Source of the DNA: Isoetes taiwanensis
Taxonomy: Eukaryota; Streptophyta; Lycopodiopsida; Isoetales; Isoetaceae
Assembly: GCA_021234155.1 (NCBI GenBank)
Contig: JAJEKV010000062.1
Span: 3,383,305 to 3,447,304 of the forward strand
Direction: 5' to 3'
DNA: 64,000 bases
The position numbers and the translations under genes are program-made. Every line of letters begins with the position of its first letter. The stretch's first letter is position 1. The notes beneath the pieces are model-generated. The model was given only the letters and a program-made list of their open reading frames with translations, ran no database searches and was not told the DNA's origin. Of this stretch, positions 3,690-60,700 are shown piece after piece.

Positions 3690-4051
3690 TGACACAACCT
3701 GTATGATTTTTTCTCGCAATTAAAGCTAGAAAAAAAGCTTCTCGCAATTAAAGCGAGCAAAAACTAGCAAACAATCTGTACGGCTTTTACGGCTTTTAAT
3801 TAGTGAACTGGTATTTTATATAACCTTACCCTTTGTGTGAAACTTTATCCTAAACAATTTTCACAGCTTTTAGTTAGTGGACTCTTATTTTATAGAAACT
3901 TAAAGCCACTTTAGGCTATGCGAAACTTTGTCCAAAAAAGTTCCTTTTTAAAGGAACCTCTATAAAAGGCAACCTTTTTCTAATAGAATTTTACGCTTTC
4001 AACGTTTTCTACAAAGTTGGCGCTTCACAATATTGGATCCAACAAAGCAGT
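3690..4051. promoter_or_regulatory. Divergent promoter region between the PDI copy and NHX
   Basis: The 364 bp between the two start codons carries a canonical TATAAAAGG at 3961-3969 pointing right (about 85 bp before the NHX ATG) and TTATATAAAAT on the minus strand at 3813-3823 pointing left (about 125 bp before the PDI ATG). An imperfect direct repeat of about 75 bp (3790-3858 and 3865-3942, starting GCTTTTAxTTAGTG) contains the leftward TATA, and a short repeat TCTCGCAATTAAAGC occurs twice at 3711-3753. Function is inferred from position and motif only. Confidence 0.5.
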
Positions 4052-47492: not shown

Positions 47493-48907
47493 GCTCATAT
47501 TATCTCAGAGGCAGATTCTGGATATTTTGTTACAGAGTACCTTTTACCATGCCTTTTTCCTCTCTACAGTTGGCATCTCCGCAGATCATCCAATCACTTC
47601 AAGAACCCATCTGATCGCAGCTACAAATCTTAATGAATCAGGAAAAACAGCTCAGAGCTCCAGTTTTTTTACGCTCCAATGGCATTCCGGGTTGTGTCAT
47701 AGCATGATTCGACCTTATCTTGCTTGCCTTCGTTGTTTTGTTCGCCACGAATTACTACCAAGAGACAAAAACTAGCTCCACATCTACCATTGCCATCGGC
47801 CCTCCTAGGGTTGAAGAAAACCACGATTTGTGTCAAGGGTAGGGCTATTGGGTGGGTTTGAATCCCCCCTTCAATGCATACCTCTATATGGGGGGGAGGG
47901 GGGGGGGACACTATAGTTGCTAGTGTTATTTTAGGATTCGAAATTCATCTTAAGGCAACAAGATGACCTAGAGAGAACTGTTATTGGAGTTATAATAATG
48001 CTTACATTATTTAGAGGTTAAGGATGCAGACCTAACGTTTTTCTCTGAGATGGAGCTAAGCTCTACCTTAAAACCTTGTTATAAGCTTCGAATTTTGTCC
48101 TGATGGACTCGGGAAGAATTATTCTATATTTAGTTGTGGTTTAGCAACGAGTGAGTTTTAAGAACTCATGTATTTCTATGGGGGATGACCCAAGATTAAG
48201 TTCTAATTTTAAAATCTAAAAAGTTGAAAAGCTTCACGGTAATGGTTCAATGCTAACTAAGTTCACTTTGGCATATTGGGTGGGAAATTTTCGTGAACTT
48301 ATGTTAGATGATACATGCAGTTATTGGCATAACCCAAAGTACCATATCATTTGGTTGGGTTTGCAGGTTCTAAAGTCGTGATTGAGTTTTCGCAGGACAT
48401 GGACATTACGATGTAAATGAGACTTGCGGAGGAGTATGAGCGAATTTTGCCAGAATAATAAGCAAAGTTAGGAGACAACCAAGTTTTGGAATTCTTTAAT
48501 ATTAAAATTGCAACTGCTTTATCCATGGAAATATCTAAAGATTGATATACATAGTAAATTGAGGCCATTTCTAATAGAACTGAAATGACAGCCTTTATCG
48601 GATAACAAATTACTGGAAATTCTTAGCCTAAGAGGGCTGGACTTAGAAATTTTTAGCCTAAAGGGCTGGACTTAGAAATTTTTAGCCTAAAGGGCTGGAC
48701 TTGGAAATTTTTAGCCTAAAGGGCTGGAGTTGAATATTCTGATTGTGGATTCAATCAGGGTTGTAACTATGGACTTGGTTATGTTAGTTTGTCATATACT
48801 TTCTTGATCGAGGACGATCAATCTCGGGAAGGGGAGGAATTGATATGGTGGTGCTTCGGGGAGTGGTTTGGAAAGCAAGAACAAGATAGATTCATGGAAA
48901 ATGAACA
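47493..48907. repeat. Unassigned sequence with a 28-29-bp tandem repeat
   Basis: At about 48622-48727 a unit GCCTAAAGGGCTGGACTT...TTTTTA is repeated four times. No gene recognised. Confidence 0.6.
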
Positions 48908-51900: not shown

Positions 51901-53360
51901 CCTCCTGGACAATCTTTCAGTCACGTCTCGTCTCTTAGAATTTAGATACCAGCTGCTAGATGCCAGAGGGCACTGCAAAAGTTGGTTCTTAGAAGATTAC
52001 AAAGATGCCAAAACATTAATTGCCTCTAACAAATCAATCTAGCATTTATATTTATGACATGGTATGACCAAATGCTCATCATGGCATAAACAATAAGAAG
52101 GTCCAACTGGTCTAAATATAAATAAATGAATACATTGGCTTTCATCCTATATTTATCTCCGGTGGCATGAAAGCATAACCGAAGATCCTAATAATTTGCT
52201 TGTAGCATAACATTCTAAAGATACATGATAAAGTATGCAGATCATATGAATAGCAAGTGGCATATAGACTGAGTATTGAGAGAGAAATAAAAGGAAGAAA
52301 TAGCAATAACTTGAACCAGCTCATAAGTAGATTTAAGACAAAGGAAAACTGGATGTCCACAACGAAATAAACCAAAAAATAAGCACAAATAATGGGCATA
52401 AATGTTTATCACATTTCGTCAGTTGAAACTGTATTAAGATGAAAAAAAAGAAAAGCCATTTTGGCAAATGCCAGCGCATATCAGAGATTGCATGAATAAC
52501 CGCCACACTTCATCCTTCTGATGGCTCCGATTCATGTAGGCCATACCTGTTTCTTGTCCGCTACATACAAAATAGTATTATGGATAAAAAAAGATGAAGG
52601 AAAATGATGGAGGATCAAAAATCAAACTGGATAATGCGCAAGGGCTGCTGGCCAACCCTTACATCGATGAAGCTGCACTAATGTTGCGATGGCGATTGGC
52701 AGCTTCGCACGGCGGTGGCCCGAAAGGACAAAAACGCAACAGAAGAGATTTAGAGTAGTTTAAAATTGACGCACCCGACCAAAAAAGTCCCGCGAGGGGG
52801 AGAGGGAACGCCGCATGTGTCTGCACATGCGGCGTTCCGGCTCGGAAATCAAATCCATTCCATTTTAATAAATAGAATAGAATAGTTTTTTTATCGTCTA
52901 AGAAGATGCTGATATTACAGATGCTAATATTGCACGAACAAATCTACAGCCTCTAATATTGTGATAGCTTGGACACAAATCTACGGCCAGAAGAAGAGCT
53001 ACTTGCAGGATCTAAGCCATGATCTGATAAAACACCGTTAAAAATATGCTCTCCAATCTTGAGAGGTTCATGCCAATGCTTTCAATTCTCCCTACCAGTT
53101 AGTTTTCTTTGGAACCAGCACTGCATGCAATTGACTGCTCAGTGTACCATGGACAACATTTTATAAAGGAAGACAATCAACATAACAGGTACTTCAAAAG
53201 CATTCTTCAAAAGCATTTTGAAGAAATCTATTTTGGAAGTATATATTCATGTGGTATGTTTACACGCTTGCAAAGATATAGATGGGCAGACATAATGGGT
53301 TCAAATCCCATATTATAAGCTCACATAATAAATTATATTATATTATTTTATTATATTATA
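48937..53360. other. Unassigned region, probably decayed Helitron sequence
   Basis: No protein recognised in 4.4 kb. Contains a perfect hairpin with 15-bp arms at 52805-52838 (GGAACGCCGCATGTG and its complement, 4-base loop). It also contains a stub of the pentanucleotide-tailed LINE 3' end at about 52868-52900 (AATAGAATAGAATAG then TTTTTTTATCGTC). Confidence 0.4.
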
Positions 53361-54921
53361 CTAGAAAAAGTGCCCAGCGTTGCTGGGCTTTCCGTCAGGC
53401 ATAAATTGAAGGCAAATATTGGATTGGTGTGAAAAGATTAAGGAATATTAATTTTGGAATTTGTACAAATGTTAATGAGCCTGGATTATGTCAAAATGCC
53501 CATAAGCTCAAGTTCAACATTTCTACTGTAAATGCTCACACCTTGGCATGGAAGACAGATAGACACCCATTGTTAAATGGTCCCATGTGGCACTCTTCAT
53601 TCAAACAAAGATTCTGCCATGTGGCACAATGCGAATTGCACATGGCTTCAATGGCATTTCATGTGCAAAGGACACCAATGAAAGCAAACATACACTCCAT
53701 AGTTTCAAGGATGAAATAACTAAAGTTCTACTTTAGACTTATAAGGGATTTTGTGCATTTACTCTTTAGATTTTGTATCATTGTTTACAATATAGATCTA
53801 ACACGCAGTCTTGCAATATGAACTTAGAAGATGCCGAATAGTTCATCGTCTATAGGAACACTTGCAGCAACTGAAAGAGATTTTTGAGGACGTAATGCAA
53901 AAGGCTATGCCTGCTTATTATTATGGCTATAGTCAATCCATGCCCGAAAGGCAAGTGATAGCGGGGCATTATATACTCATGTCTCTTTTGTTCAATGGCT
54001 TTGCTTATTCAATGCTTAGCAACAATGGAAATATAACATTCTTTTACATGTGTGTATTGTGTACTGTGAAAAATGGCATATGCACTATATTGTGAAAAAT
54101 TGTCCGACATACACTGCCAAATAGTGGGCATTAAGCAATGTGGATTAAAGATGTTGCAATGCAACCAAACAATGCTTTTGAAATGCCAGGGTGCTAGGCT
54201 AAGTGCAAAAGTGAATAATTAATGATAAGTTCTTTAGAGATTAAAATGTTATTCTGTTTTTCGGAATCAGTGTGAGAAAGATGATATGACTTTACATGCT
54301 CAAACAAACTTATCTATCTCATCAAGTCCTCCTCTTTCAAGCATCTCCAGTCCAAGTAGGGTGTGGCTACATCTGGGAGTTCAACAATACATGGAGCGAA
54401 GGGTATTTATACCGAATTAAAAAAAAAACATACCTTGCTACTGCATTTTGAAAACCTAAGGCTACTTCCTCATTTGTTTTGGAAAGGACAATTATGCTAC
54501 TTCCCCATTTGTTTTACTCTTTGATCGAGCCTGTGATTCCATAGGCTTAACTAATTATGATGATCGTGCTAATTACGATGATCGTGGTAGGAAATTATGG
54601 AGATCAATGACCTAGGCTTAATTAGACGCACATCGAGAACTCAAAAAAAAAAATTGGCACTCAATTTAGGCAATGAAACAAAAATTATTATGGTCTCATA
54701 TACAAATTGACTACATTCAACTCCGCCATTAACCTTACCTAGAATTAAAAAACCACAAAATGGTGACTTGATAGAAAAATGGAGGTGGTTTGCACTGCAC
54801 AATCAGATTATTAACAATGACTGCTGAAGCTTACAAATGAACAAAAGCTTGCAAGAAACATTTTTCATCATCTACATTCCACATTATCATTTCTCTACGG
54901 TAAATCAATCGATGTATTCTT

Positions 54922-55824
54922 TCAGATTTCTAGAATACTTGCAAATTTTAAGTTCTTATCCATTGACCCTTCAGGCTTCTTGATGTAGTATATCGCATGC
55001 GATTTCATGAAACCTAGACCATGCTCAGCACTAACACTTCCTTTATGGGATGCAGTCCATTCATAAACAAATGGTTCAACCTGCAGAAGTACCTGCGGAG
55101 AACACCAAAACAAGAGTTAAATGAAAGGATTTTTTGGTGCAAAATAATTAACATTGTGCTTTTGAGCGTTTACCTCAGCAGTATATATGGGTGCAGAGAC
55201 ATTAAGGTGCAAATTTCCATCTCCAAGATGACCATAACCAACCACTCTAACACATTTATCTTCCACTGTTTCGAAAATTTATGCAGATTTTGTGAACGGT
55301 CCTGAACTGTGGAGAGAAAAAGCATAAAATCCAATACCTAAGCGTTGTCTGATTTCCTCAACAAGGTCGTACATGTGATTTACAGAAACTGAAAGATCAT
55401 ATTTGTAGACAGCACCTGCTTTTCCTAAGGCTTCTGCAATGCCCTGTAAACATAAGTATCCAATAAGTACAATGAATCATGTACTCCATCACATTATTTA
55501 CCACTGCCTGTTGACCACATAAGCTTTGAAATTCATGATAATTAAACACAAATAAAGGCACATTCCAATTCAGAATAATATCTGAAACTTAGTTAATTCA
55601 AAAATATTATCATTTACCCGATCTAATGGTCTACTATCCTTATTTTTACGTAACAAGAAACTCTGTATTTTTTATTCACAAGATGTCAATGGAAACATGT
55701 TATCAGTGTGGCATACCTCACGTATATTCCAGAAAGCAATGGCCTGGAGTTATCTTGGGCAACTGCACCATCAGAAAGTACCCCCTTCTCTAAAACATGC
55801 TCCAAAAAGGAGTCCAATTTCTCT
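54922..55824 (-). pseudogene. D-2-hydroxyglutarate dehydrogenase, last exons, captured
   Basis: FAD-linked oxidase family, mitochondrial. Exons: 55717-55824 (E-K-L-D-S-F-L-E, S-D-G-A-V-A-Q-D, then F-W-N-I-R-E after a 1-base loss), 55338-55443 (G-I-A-E-A-L, Y-K-Y-D-L-S), 55174-55265 (G-Y-G-H-L-G-D-G-N-L-H-L-N, whose two histidines are metal ligands in this family) and 54922-55092 ([19 protein letters not shown]). Splice sites are GT-AG. The C-terminus departs from the family after K-K-P-E and stops early. The N-terminal FAD domain is absent. Frameshift and truncation indicate a non-functional fragment. Confidence 0.87.
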
Positions 55825-55861
55825 CTGAAATGCACAGACTCAATTTTAATCTACACTATAC

Positions 55862-56293
55862 GAAGCAAGCCTGGTACCAGCATCAGCTTAGATTCCAGAG
55901 AAGAACGATCCTTGTTCCTGAGTAGGATGATATGTTTATATTTCTTCCAGAGCACCATATAACATGCAATGGACAACCAGTAAACACCAACAATAAATGC
56001 CCACATTTTTGGATCTTTTTGCTGCACCAAGATGACAAGAAAATATGATAAGGATCAATGTCTTAATTCAATAAATTGAAAATTAATCCATAATATCACA
56101 ACATCAACCTTCAAATTGGCCATATCCAGTGCGTCAAAGCCACTAAAGGTAGAATTGACATCGGTGCATCTTGTCGAATTATTTGCAGAGCTTGTGGTTC
56201 CTTTAGATCTTTGTTTCAATTGGTTGCCAGTTGCTGCCAGTGGTAGAAGCACCAGAATGCCAAATATTGCAGTGCAGCCCAAAATCTTCAAAG
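55862..56293 (-). pseudogene. OSCA/CSC1 (ERD4-like) calcium channel, two N-terminal-half exons, captured
   Basis: Exon 56109-56293 reads A-L-K-I-L-G-C-T-A-I-F-G-I-L-V-L-L-P then F-S-G-F-D-A-L-D-M-A-N-L-K; exon 55862-56021 reads K-M-W-A-F-I-V-G-V-Y-W-L-S-I-A-C-Y and W-K-K-Y-K-H-I-I-L-L-R. These are the first membrane segments and following linker of hyperosmolality-gated channels of the OSCA/DUF221 family. The borders have AG acceptors and GT donors. The rest of the gene is missing: 37 bases after the second exon, D2HGDH sequence begins on the same strand. Confidence 0.78.
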
Positions 56294-56724
56294 CTACAAA
56301 TTGGTATAATTTTGACAACATATCGACATCCTTCATGTTCTTTTTTAAGAAGAGCTAGAAAGCAGACAAGCATAACCTAGGCTATGCTTATCATGTCCTA
56401 ACCTATGCGAAAACCTCTAAATGTTCCCTCAACATTGGAAAGCACAAAGATGGTCCTATTCCTAGACATCCTGCTTAAAAGCTAGAGCTACAAATATCTA
56501 CCACTCTAAATATCAATTACTATTCTATTCTATTCCATGCAACACCATCTACGAAGAAGAAGATGATTTTAAAAAACAGAAATATATGTTCTAATGAATA
56601 GAAGAGCAGTCTAAAAACAGAAAATATCTCCAATTAACAGAGCATTAGTCTTCGTCCTTAATAACGATAATAAGCATTGTGAGTCTAGAACTTCCTATAC
56701 AAGCTTAAAGGAAAACGAAAGGTA

Positions 56725-57535
56725 TAGAAAATTTTGAGCAGAGATTTCTACAGAAGATTTCGAAGAAAGAATTTCTAGAAGAAAAAGAAGGAATACCTTG
56801 CAGATCTGAAGCGATGATCTGGAGGCTACCTTGTCAAAAGCTAAACCTCTGATGCGCATTTCAAAAATTTCCCGATAGGGCTGCTTCTTGTGCAGTCATT
56901 AACGCCAAAGGTGGGCTTATAGACCGCAAAAATATGGAACAGAACAAGAAATATATAGAAACGGCCTTTGTACTGCGGCAGGATTTGCACTGGGTCTTAG
57001 CATTGCACAGACAAACAGAGTTCTTCATTTAAAGAAGTTACCCTATCGTTTTAGCCAGTGTGCATGTAAAAAGAACGATATCAAGTACAGTCCCCGCCAT
57101 ACTAAACCACGCAAGTTGTGCCCCAAAATAGAAAATTTTGAGCAGAGATTTCTACAGAAGATTTCGAAGAAAGAATTTCTAGAAGAAAAAGAAGGAATAC
57201 CTTGCAGATCTGAAGCGATGATCTGGAGGCTACCTTGTCAAAAGCTAAACCTCTGATGCGCATTTCAAAAATTTCCCGATAGGGCTGCTTCTTGTGCAGT
57301 CATTAACGCCAAAGGTGGGCTTATAGACCGCAAAAATATGGAACAGAACAAGAAATATATAGAAACTGGCCTTTGTACCGAGCAGGGATTTGCCTTGGGT
57401 CTTAGCATTACCTGCATAAAACAGAGTTCTTCATTTAAAGAAGTTACCCTATCGTTTTAGCCAGTGTGCATGTAAAAAGAACGATATCAAGTACAGTCCC
57501 CGCCATACTAAACCACGCAAGTTGTGCCCCAAAAT
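56725..57535. repeat. 404-bp tandem duplication inside the Helitron
   Basis: Units 56725-57128 and 57129-57535 are nearly identical. Each contains on the minus strand a short open exon-like stretch beginning ATG (M-R-I-R-G-L-A-F-D-K-V-A-S-R-S-S...) closed by a GTATTC donor. It is arginine/serine-rich like an organellar transit peptide; its gene of origin is unknown. Confidence 0.88.
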
Positions 57536-57999
57536 ACATCAACCGACTCAAAATAGACTAAGAAAAATCAATCGTTTTAATCCAAGAACGTTCCTGCTTA
57601 GACCCAAGAACCCCATTCCGGCATTCAAGAACTGGAAAGGGGAGATGCGCGGATTTGCAGAAGAAGAGAGCTAGAACCGTTGCATCAAACAAAACCGCTA
57701 AAATCAACGAATGAAAATAAGTTAAAAAAATTCAAAGGCCAAGATCGCGCACAGACTTTCACAAAACGCCTTTATTATTATATATAGATAGATAGATAGA
57801 TATCCTTCTATATATATTATTACTAAAAAAAAAACCGGTTACAAAAGTGGCATTTTGGAATTAGCTATACTGATTTTCAGGCAATTGTATTAAAGCAAAA
57901 TTGCATTTGTTTAAGCCGGAATAAATTTTGAGCTGCCGTACCCCCTGCCTCCCTCTCCCTTCTCCGACGAAGAGCGCCTTTCTATATGCACTCGGCCTC

Positions 58000-60700
58000 A
58001 CTCTCCTCGGAGCAAAAGCGGCGGCCGCGAGGCCCAAGATTTTTGATTTGCCTCGAGCCTATAAACCAGGTACTCTTTTCCTTTTTTGCTGAATTCGATT
58101 TGAGGCTTGAATTTAAAATTTCCTTTGGCATTTGCAAGTAAGCCGGCTCTCCCAGCAAGCAGGGACTCCGTTTGCACGAAGTGGGCTAATAAACCTGTTG
58201 TACTGCCCGCCCAAGTGCTATCTGTGGCTTGAATTCTTAAAACAAGGAGCCCTTAGCTATTCCGTCCAACGAACGTCCAGGTAAACCTTCTATTATTTGG
58301 CTATTCATGAGCAATCTAGGCTGTCCGGGGCAATAATTCTGAGGCTAGCCTATTTTAAATCCGAACACAGAGCGATTGTTTAAAAGGGATAGCTAGCTTC
58401 CTGAGGCCAGGCACGATATCCAGGTATGTTTCCCCCATCTGCCAGTAATATTTACATGCAAAACATTAGTTAGTTCTAGATTCCGAGGCAAAGTTAAGAT
58501 AAAATTATAAGCGAAGTGTTGAAGCCCTTCAAGCCTGCTTGGAAGATTTTGGAAGATTTTGAGGTTGTTTTCCAATAGTTCCAATAGAAATTCTAATCTA
58601 AAATACAGTCCCCTGTCAAATATGAAGAACAAAAATTAGAGGCGGAACCCTTGGAGATACCTATGGGCGTAATTTGCCTTGAAAACAGAGGTCTGTACCA
58701 GCAACCCAGCACAGCGGAGCAATGCTATACCATATTTTGGCTGTAAAAACTAAGGACTCTTTAATATCAAAGGGAAACAGCTGTGTATTTGAAAGCGGTG
58801 ACATTAAACATGGCCCATGTCAATATTTCTGTAGTCCAATTGTTGCTAAAAATTAAAGCATCGATTTACCCGTGAGAGTGCAGTGACATGCCCCCAATTC
58901 TGGACCTCAAAGATAAAGATTGACCTCTGCAATTTTGTGGTTTATAGACCCAAATTTGGGTGTGAATTGATAGATTGTCGGAATAAATTCTTAAATCCGA
59001 GACACAGACAAGGGAAAGGCTCGCCGGTTTCTTCATGCTCTACTCAAAATAGCAAAGGTGCATATAATGATTCTTGAGCCGAATTAAAACTGTAAAATTT
59101 GGTGGCAGTTAGGAAAGACAGCATGAGATTGAGCCGAATTAAACCTCTAAAATTTGGTGACAGCTGGGAAAAACGGCATCAGAGTTAAAGAGTGTGTTGC
59201 TTAGTCATGGTTTGCTCAGGCGTTCGCCATAACTTGGCAGATTGTACTGTCAGATTGAAAGCAGAATCTCCAAATTTGTACGTTGCAGCTCTTTGCAAAG
59301 GGGTACCTTCCAAAGATGCGAGTTCGCCCAATTGGATTCAGACCAATTTTAATCCAAGTAGTTTAAAGCCTCAGCCCGAAAACACGAGATCGCCTCTGAA
59401 TTAAATCCATTTGTGAAGAGGTAATTTTTGTTAACTTCCTTTCGGTTAGGCCACAGTTTGCATTACGATTAATAAAATTTACATATGGGCTAGCAACGAG
59501 CTTTGTAGAACAGTGAACAGGATCGTCATGTATACTTCTTGCAAGGCGAGAAGTCACAAATTAAAATTCAGTCCAGATGGGACTGTTGAAAGGCACACAG
59601 TTAGCTTAGTGAATATAGATGAAAATTGCACCAAGTTGATGTAAAATCTGAGTAGAGTTTGCCCTTTCCCAAGCAGCATTGAACAGGTTGATGATAGTGA
59701 TAAAATTCTAGTTATGAGGATGGATAAATAGAGTAGAAACATACCCATAATATAAGCATGAAAACTTCACTGTCCGACCTCTTTTTTGAACCAAATGAGA
59801 TTGCTCATGTCGGAAATTTATGCAAACCCAGTGAGAGATAAGCAACAGGTTACATCGGTGAATTATAACTTGAGACACCCTGCATTGGACCTTTACTTCG
59901 CAAATGTGGCATTGCAGAGGATTTATTTGAAGGACAACGAGTCTATCAGCGCACAATTCACAATGGGCTGAATGTCAAGAGAATGTTCATATTTCTGTCG
60001 CAATTGTTGACACATGCAGGATGCCATCTGAATCTTGGCTTTGTGTTACATAGAAACCCATGACATAGACTTAGACTTAGCCAGAATTTGTCCATGGCTT
60101 AGAAACCCGCCGAAATAATGGTTATAATTCATGCCATGTCCATACATCTTCCATGCTACTGCAGCCTAGCCAGTGAAAAGCAGGCTTGAAAGTGCCTCGC
60201 TTACCAATTTCATTGGACTTTAAACAATAAAAGCCTAATATAGGCTAGCAGGTCTGATTTTGGGTTGAAACTAGCCTAAACACAGCTATTGATTGAATCT
60301 AGCTATCAAATGGAGATTGAATCCCTGACTTTGCATTTGATTCAGATTTTCCTTTCCCCATTTTGGTTACAGATTCATGGTGGTAGATGCATGACGAGCT
60401 ATGATGTTGTAATGGTACGGCCATGTTGTTTAGATGATTTAAGGCCTCGGCCCTACATGCTGTTCACAACCCATGCATCAAAATCACGCTGCTTACTTTC
60501 CAAGGTGCCACAAAAAGTTGACATACCCTTCAAATTGAAAGACTCACTGTGACAACTGTCACAGAGATTTGAGTAATATACATGCTTGAATTTAAGGAAT
60601 TTGAAAAGAAATCAGGAATATTTTGTAACTATCAGGCAATAACGTAATATTACTCATCTTCCTTTGGACAATTTGTTAATAGTGCTAAGCAATTGAAGAG
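58000..60700. other. Non-coding stretch between candidate Helitron 5' end and its first exon
   Basis: No protein recognised in 2.7 kb. A unit of about 75 bp (TTGAGCCGAATTAAA...AAAATTTGGTG) is tandemly repeated at about 59077-59185. Confidence 0.35.

Follow-up and report, generated by a model that had tools for sequence, protein, structure and literature searches.

Helitrons are inserted between A and T, start with TC, and end with CTRR (accessible text of PMC4528327). For a bat Helitron, a functional role is reported for a hairpin close to the 3' end (PMC4778049, in the portion available). In maize, several gene fragments have been captured by Helitrons in a stepwise manner (accessible part of PMC3288121). 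Captured pieces are mostly dead and sometimes transcribed (accessible text of PMC4528327), and about 2,791 transcribed gene-carrying Helitrons are reported from maize in the available part of PMC13317346. That Helitrons can capture several genes is well established, and the element described here is ordinary in kind. Like the gene-capturing Helitrons of maize, as the accessible sources describe them, it has an A|T insertion site, TC and CTAG ends, a hairpin, and several gene fragments; unlike them, it is found in another plant, carries other genes, and has a variable TCTA 5' end. Pack-MULE and CACTA elements also capture and spread gene fragments, whereas this element belongs to a family with Helitron ends and with empty sites that lack a target duplication.

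The window, i.e., the whole stretch of DNA analysed, covers 64,000 nucleotides of Isoetes taiwanensis (C1070:3383305-3447304). At 48123-48221 (+) of the window, a tRNA-Leu (taa) is called by ARAGORN. The subject of this analysis is a unit on the minus strand, which we consider, with a probability of about 0.94, to be a non-autonomous Helitron that contains fragments of two unrelated host genes and has moved as a unit. The fragments come from an OSCA (CSC1/ERD4-like) gene and from a gene for D-2-hydroxyglutarate dehydrogenase (D2HGDH). The ends and the interior of the element were compared with the whole genome (1.66 Gb), and 17 places were retrieved and then aligned. From 5' to 3', the order is backbone, OSCA intron and exons, filler, D2HGDH exons, and backbone:

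53361-57800, minus strand: putative whole non-autonomous Helitron, 4,440 bp, delimited by family termini (conservative 5' limit, 57788)
57769-57800, minus strand: 5' terminus, (TCTA)4 then TATATAATAATAAAGG, from family comparison
56650-57788, minus strand: 5' backbone, of which 57788-57237 is common to other family members (98% to C1068)
56724-57536, minus strand: tandem duplication of about 405 bp within the 5' backbone, single copy in C907
55886-56649, minus strand: OSCA fragment, 95% to C1031, consisting of a partial intron, exon 56293-56109, an intron, and the cut exon 56021-55886
55880-55885, minus strand: 6-nt filler TGATGC between the captured genes, identical in the window and C907 and present in neither donor
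54371-55879, minus strand: D2HGDH fragment, colinear with C1107 (L020) in three blocks of 85%, 93%, and 76%
About 55824-55717, 55443-55338, 55306-55174, and 55092-54970, minus strand: D2HGDH exons (read by hand), then a damaged last exon and 3' flank
53361-54372, minus strand: 3' backbone, about 95% to the C1045 and C919 copies, which differ before the joint
53372-53388, minus strand: subterminal hairpin GCCCAGC-AAC-GCTGGGC with a 7-bp stem
53361-53364, minus strand: terminal CTAG, then host T at 53360

The initial annotation had placed the hairpin, CTAG, and the host T at the 3' end; all are present and are common to the family. CTAG followed by T is found in all eight copies shown, and the hairpin stem is perfect in seven of them, L009 having one stem change. 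The 29-mer running through CTAGT at this end has 2,037 matches in the genome with up to two mismatches (1003+1034), against 0 for the reversed control. The last 40 nt of the element fold at -8.9 kcal/mol (z -2.79; 4 of 200 shuffles are equally good). At the other end, A is followed by TCTATATATAATAATAAAGG at 57788 in the window element, and the 5' 27-mer has 458 matches (222+236) at the same threshold of up to two mismatches, with none for its control. The A|TCTATATATAATAATAAAGG start is seen with at most one change in 6/8 copies shown. L010 has it also when its start is shifted one base earlier, and L012 has a variant 5' start. Other copies with these ends, which the same annotation had predicted, thus exist in the genome as thousands of 3' and hundreds of 5' matches. 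On contigs C1-C712, the range covered by both listings, 14 of the 16 listed 5' ends have a correctly oriented 3' end downstream at a distance of 3.2-11.2 kb (the totals of 2,037 and 458 are complete counts). Both ends therefore define one family. An inverted-repeat search of 52800-58400 (minimum 20 nt) gave eight pairs, none of which links the two ends of the element. The reading frames of the family members L018 and L025 contain stops.

Insertion is further documented by empty sites. For L009, L010, L018, L025, and L012, 130 nt of each flank were joined, and in all five the joined flanks match uninterrupted places elsewhere (95, 97, 97, 100, and 97%, respectively). The chimera copy on C907 is among the five copies with paralogous empty sites, its best match being C1046 at 95%. 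The empty sites of L010 and L025 show the exact A|T joint, with neither duplicated nor missing bases, those of L009 and L018 show it if one TCTA unit is assigned to the element, and that of L012 fits with a hand-set start and one change beside the joint. Together with the termini common to family copies, these sites of its relatives bear out the Helitron identity first proposed for the window unit. For the window copy itself, the flanking A and T are seen, but an empty site, as had been looked for, was not found: no match extends across the joint of its 401+400 nt flanks (40 scored of 204 candidates). Its right flank is an AT-rich dispersed repeat. The single long relative of its left flank (C1066, L030) continues differently. 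The missing empty site and the matches of the two flanks to different repeats count against the Helitron reading.

The two boundaries first assigned to the element fare differently. The 3' end at 53361 stands; the 5' end at 57788 probably lies 12 nt further out, at 57800, with the host A at 57801. Three more TCTA units precede 57788 in the window copy, with GGATA ahead of them. The longer start is the likelier one because the empty sites of L009 and L018, the two copies in which this could be tested, lack the extra TCTA unit. In the genome there are 57 exact ATCTATCTATATATAATAATAAAGG versus 209 exact TCTATATATAATAATAAAGG, i.e., at least one extra TCTA unit follows A in 57 of the 209 exact 5' cores; therefore the number of TCTA units varies within the family. 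Since the extra unit is absent from both tested empty sites, units may be gained or lost at or after transposition, and we tentatively suggest that the 5' end of the family is not fixed and can hold anything from a single TCTA unit to perhaps four or more, an idea we hold to be possible rather than probable. If the change occurs during copying, it would point to slippage or to a relaxed choice of the 5' nick in a run of TC dinucleotides. If the 5' end is at 57800, the empty allele at C1070:3436664-3441105 would read GGATA|TATAATATAAT. The literature searched, which was mostly that outside subscription journals and was accessible in part, gave no description of a TCTA 5' end that varies.

A sister chimera is found at C907:28669250-28673339. 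Between different flanks, it carries the two ends and the two gene pieces, with the same joints and the same filler. Among the 34 matches (30 candidates, all of which were scored), only C1070 and C907 have the two gene pieces together. The same joints at two loci imply that the chimera was assembled a single time and has since moved, or been copied, as a whole. The window and C907 copies share an ancestor that postdates capture. In the OSCA piece, the window, C907, and the donor can be aligned over 750 gap-free columns and 29 columns with gaps. Among the gap-free columns, 718 are identical in all three, ten separate the window and C907 from the donor, three are private to the window, 18 are private to C907, and all three differ in one. 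Many of the changes private to C907 are clustered and resemble consensus errors. Between the window and C907, OSCA has 9 differences in about 760 aligned positions, D2HGDH 25 in about 907 and 6 in about 600, and the 3' backbone 7 in about 996; the window and the OSCA donor differ at 14 of about 750. Such low divergence suggests a recent event. Part of the 5' backbone (about 57737-57240) is missing from C907, which counts against the Helitron reading. The joint between D2HGDH and the 3' backbone consists of AT common to both sides (54371-54372).

The OSCA piece corresponds to the gene on C1031 (L019) with introns included, and the open frames of that gene extend beyond both sides of the captured stretch. 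A total of 106 amino acids match the chains of CSC1-like ERD4 in PDB (E about 5e-17; Pfam RSN1_TM). In OSCA exon 3 the splice donor has been cut off, and the frame continues to a TAG stop at 55853-55851. The D2HGDH piece is represented by 144 amino acids matching D-2-hydroxyglutarate dehydrogenase 6lpn in PDB (E 8.9e-43; Pfam FAD-oxidase_C). In the window copy, exon A is frameshifted by the loss of 1 nt, and the 144-amino-acid string therefore uses a second frame at the end of the exon. The window copy also lacks about 70 nt downstream of exon D. Most of the last exon, about 460 bp relative to C1107, is lost in both the window and C907. Same-sense capture is usual for Helitrons, and the same-strand orientation given for the two pieces in the initial annotation is confirmed, both being on the minus strand.

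That annotation also presupposed a donor for each gene. For OSCA it is found at C1031; for D2HGDH an intact one was not found. A protein search with D2HGDH gives 18 places on eight contigs. These include the Helitron copies on C1070 and C907, C1035 (L021), which has stops, C1107, which has indels and stops, and a weak place on C984; exon A alone is found at C974, C1007, and C1054. A search with FAD-oxidase_C gives four places, those on C1108 matching the D2HGDH exons weakly. Intact C-terminal exons of D2HGDH were not found in the assembly, and a missing match does not prove their absence. The relative on C1107, L020 (C1107:1844257-1845187), is rich in small indels, and the identity of the D2HGDH donor is uncertain for this reason. 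Its alignment with the captured piece goes up to the 3' flank with many indels. In a six-way alignment of one stretch, C1107 has 29 private substitutions, 14 inserted columns, and ten deleted columns. C1107 may be the true D2HGDH gene with a poor consensus sequence; if the consensus is sound, the gene has decayed or is absent.

Exon A of D2HGDH, with a longer upstream part, also exists in three related repeats: L022:2453-2812 (C1054), L023:2501-2860 (C974), and L024:2459-2817 (C1007). The CACTA-like terminus CACTACAAGAGAAGGG closes L022 and L024, and the same D2HGDH gene may thus have been captured by a second type of transposon.

It could be argued that the two gene pieces were neighbours in the host beforehand and that the Helitron-like ends are there by chance or merely adjoin them. 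Such an origin would agree with the window flanks, which match two different repeats and have no empty site across them. It is hard to reconcile with C907, where the same ends and interior stand between other flanks and where these flanks, when joined, match whole places, the best being C1046. In addition, the best non-element relatives of the two genes are on different contigs, OSCA on C1031 and D2HGDH on C1107 and C1035. These locations uphold the capture of two unrelated genes, as first claimed, and we regard prior neighbourhood as extremely improbable.

The chimera could also be seen as an expressed fusion gene, its OSCA-D2HGDH transcript being useful or acting as a regulatory RNA. Its exons are on the same strand with several splice sites intact, and pieces captured by maize Helitrons are sometimes transcribed as fusions (accessible text of PMC4528327). 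Against this, OSCA exon 3 has lost its donor site and continues to a stop, the frame of D2HGDH exon A is shifted in the window copy, and both the stretch following exon D and the bulk of the last exon are gone. The chimeric transcript envisaged in the initial annotation is therefore its weak point. A protein from the chimera is unlikely because the frames are broken, and a functional fusion transcript appears highly improbable as well. The gene fragments in the window Helitron are, as far as their sequence can tell, probably decaying passengers, and a useful protein from them would be improbable.

As for how the non-autonomous Helitron moved, a RepHel protein encoded elsewhere (e.g., by an element on C1036) would nick at the 5' TC, peel off one strand, and stop at the hairpin and CTAG. 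Capture may have taken place through switches of copying or repair into the OSCA gene and D2HGDH, probably in several steps rather than one; it would have left the 6-nt filler at one joint and the 2-nt microhomology at another. At least 150 RepHel matches exist in the genome (150 listed, with 1,813 first-look candidates). Downstream of three of the eight RepHel loci read (L032, L033, and L038), GCCC(A/G)GCAACGC(C/T)GGGC and CTAGT are found on the expected strand. At one of the three, on C1036 (C1036:8550182 region), the exact 17-nt hairpin of the window element is located 789 bp past an ORF of 1,198 amino acids with Helitron_like_N and PIF1. The window element resembles such autonomous elements in the 17-nt hairpin and the CTAG|T end, on which the comparison is based, and differs from them in that they encode Helitron_like_N and the PIF1 helicase. 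The C1036 element is a plausible autonomous partner, and the family of the window element may be mobilised by one of these RepHel elements. The 5' end of the C1036 element was not found within 9 kb. L032 contains several hairpins, one of them on the opposite strand, so nested copies could be the source of the hairpins seen near RepHel genes. Also in L032, two identical GCCCGGCAACGCCGGGC...CTAGT ends (207-237 and 3743-3773) lie 3.5 kb apart downstream of the RepHel gene; they are perhaps tandem or nested Helitron ends. The 11.2-kb element on C101 (L028, L029) was rejected as an autonomous partner, its sole ORF of at least 120 amino acids having 126.

The window element thus offers a clean case of exon shuffling, with one chimera at two loci, joints at base level, a close donor for one gene, and empty sites of its relatives. 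The variable TCTA end is a small, testable puzzle on where Helitron transfer starts. More than 2,000 3' ends matching one 29-mer indicate a very large Helitron family in the genome of Isoetes taiwanensis, from which further capture joints could be collected.
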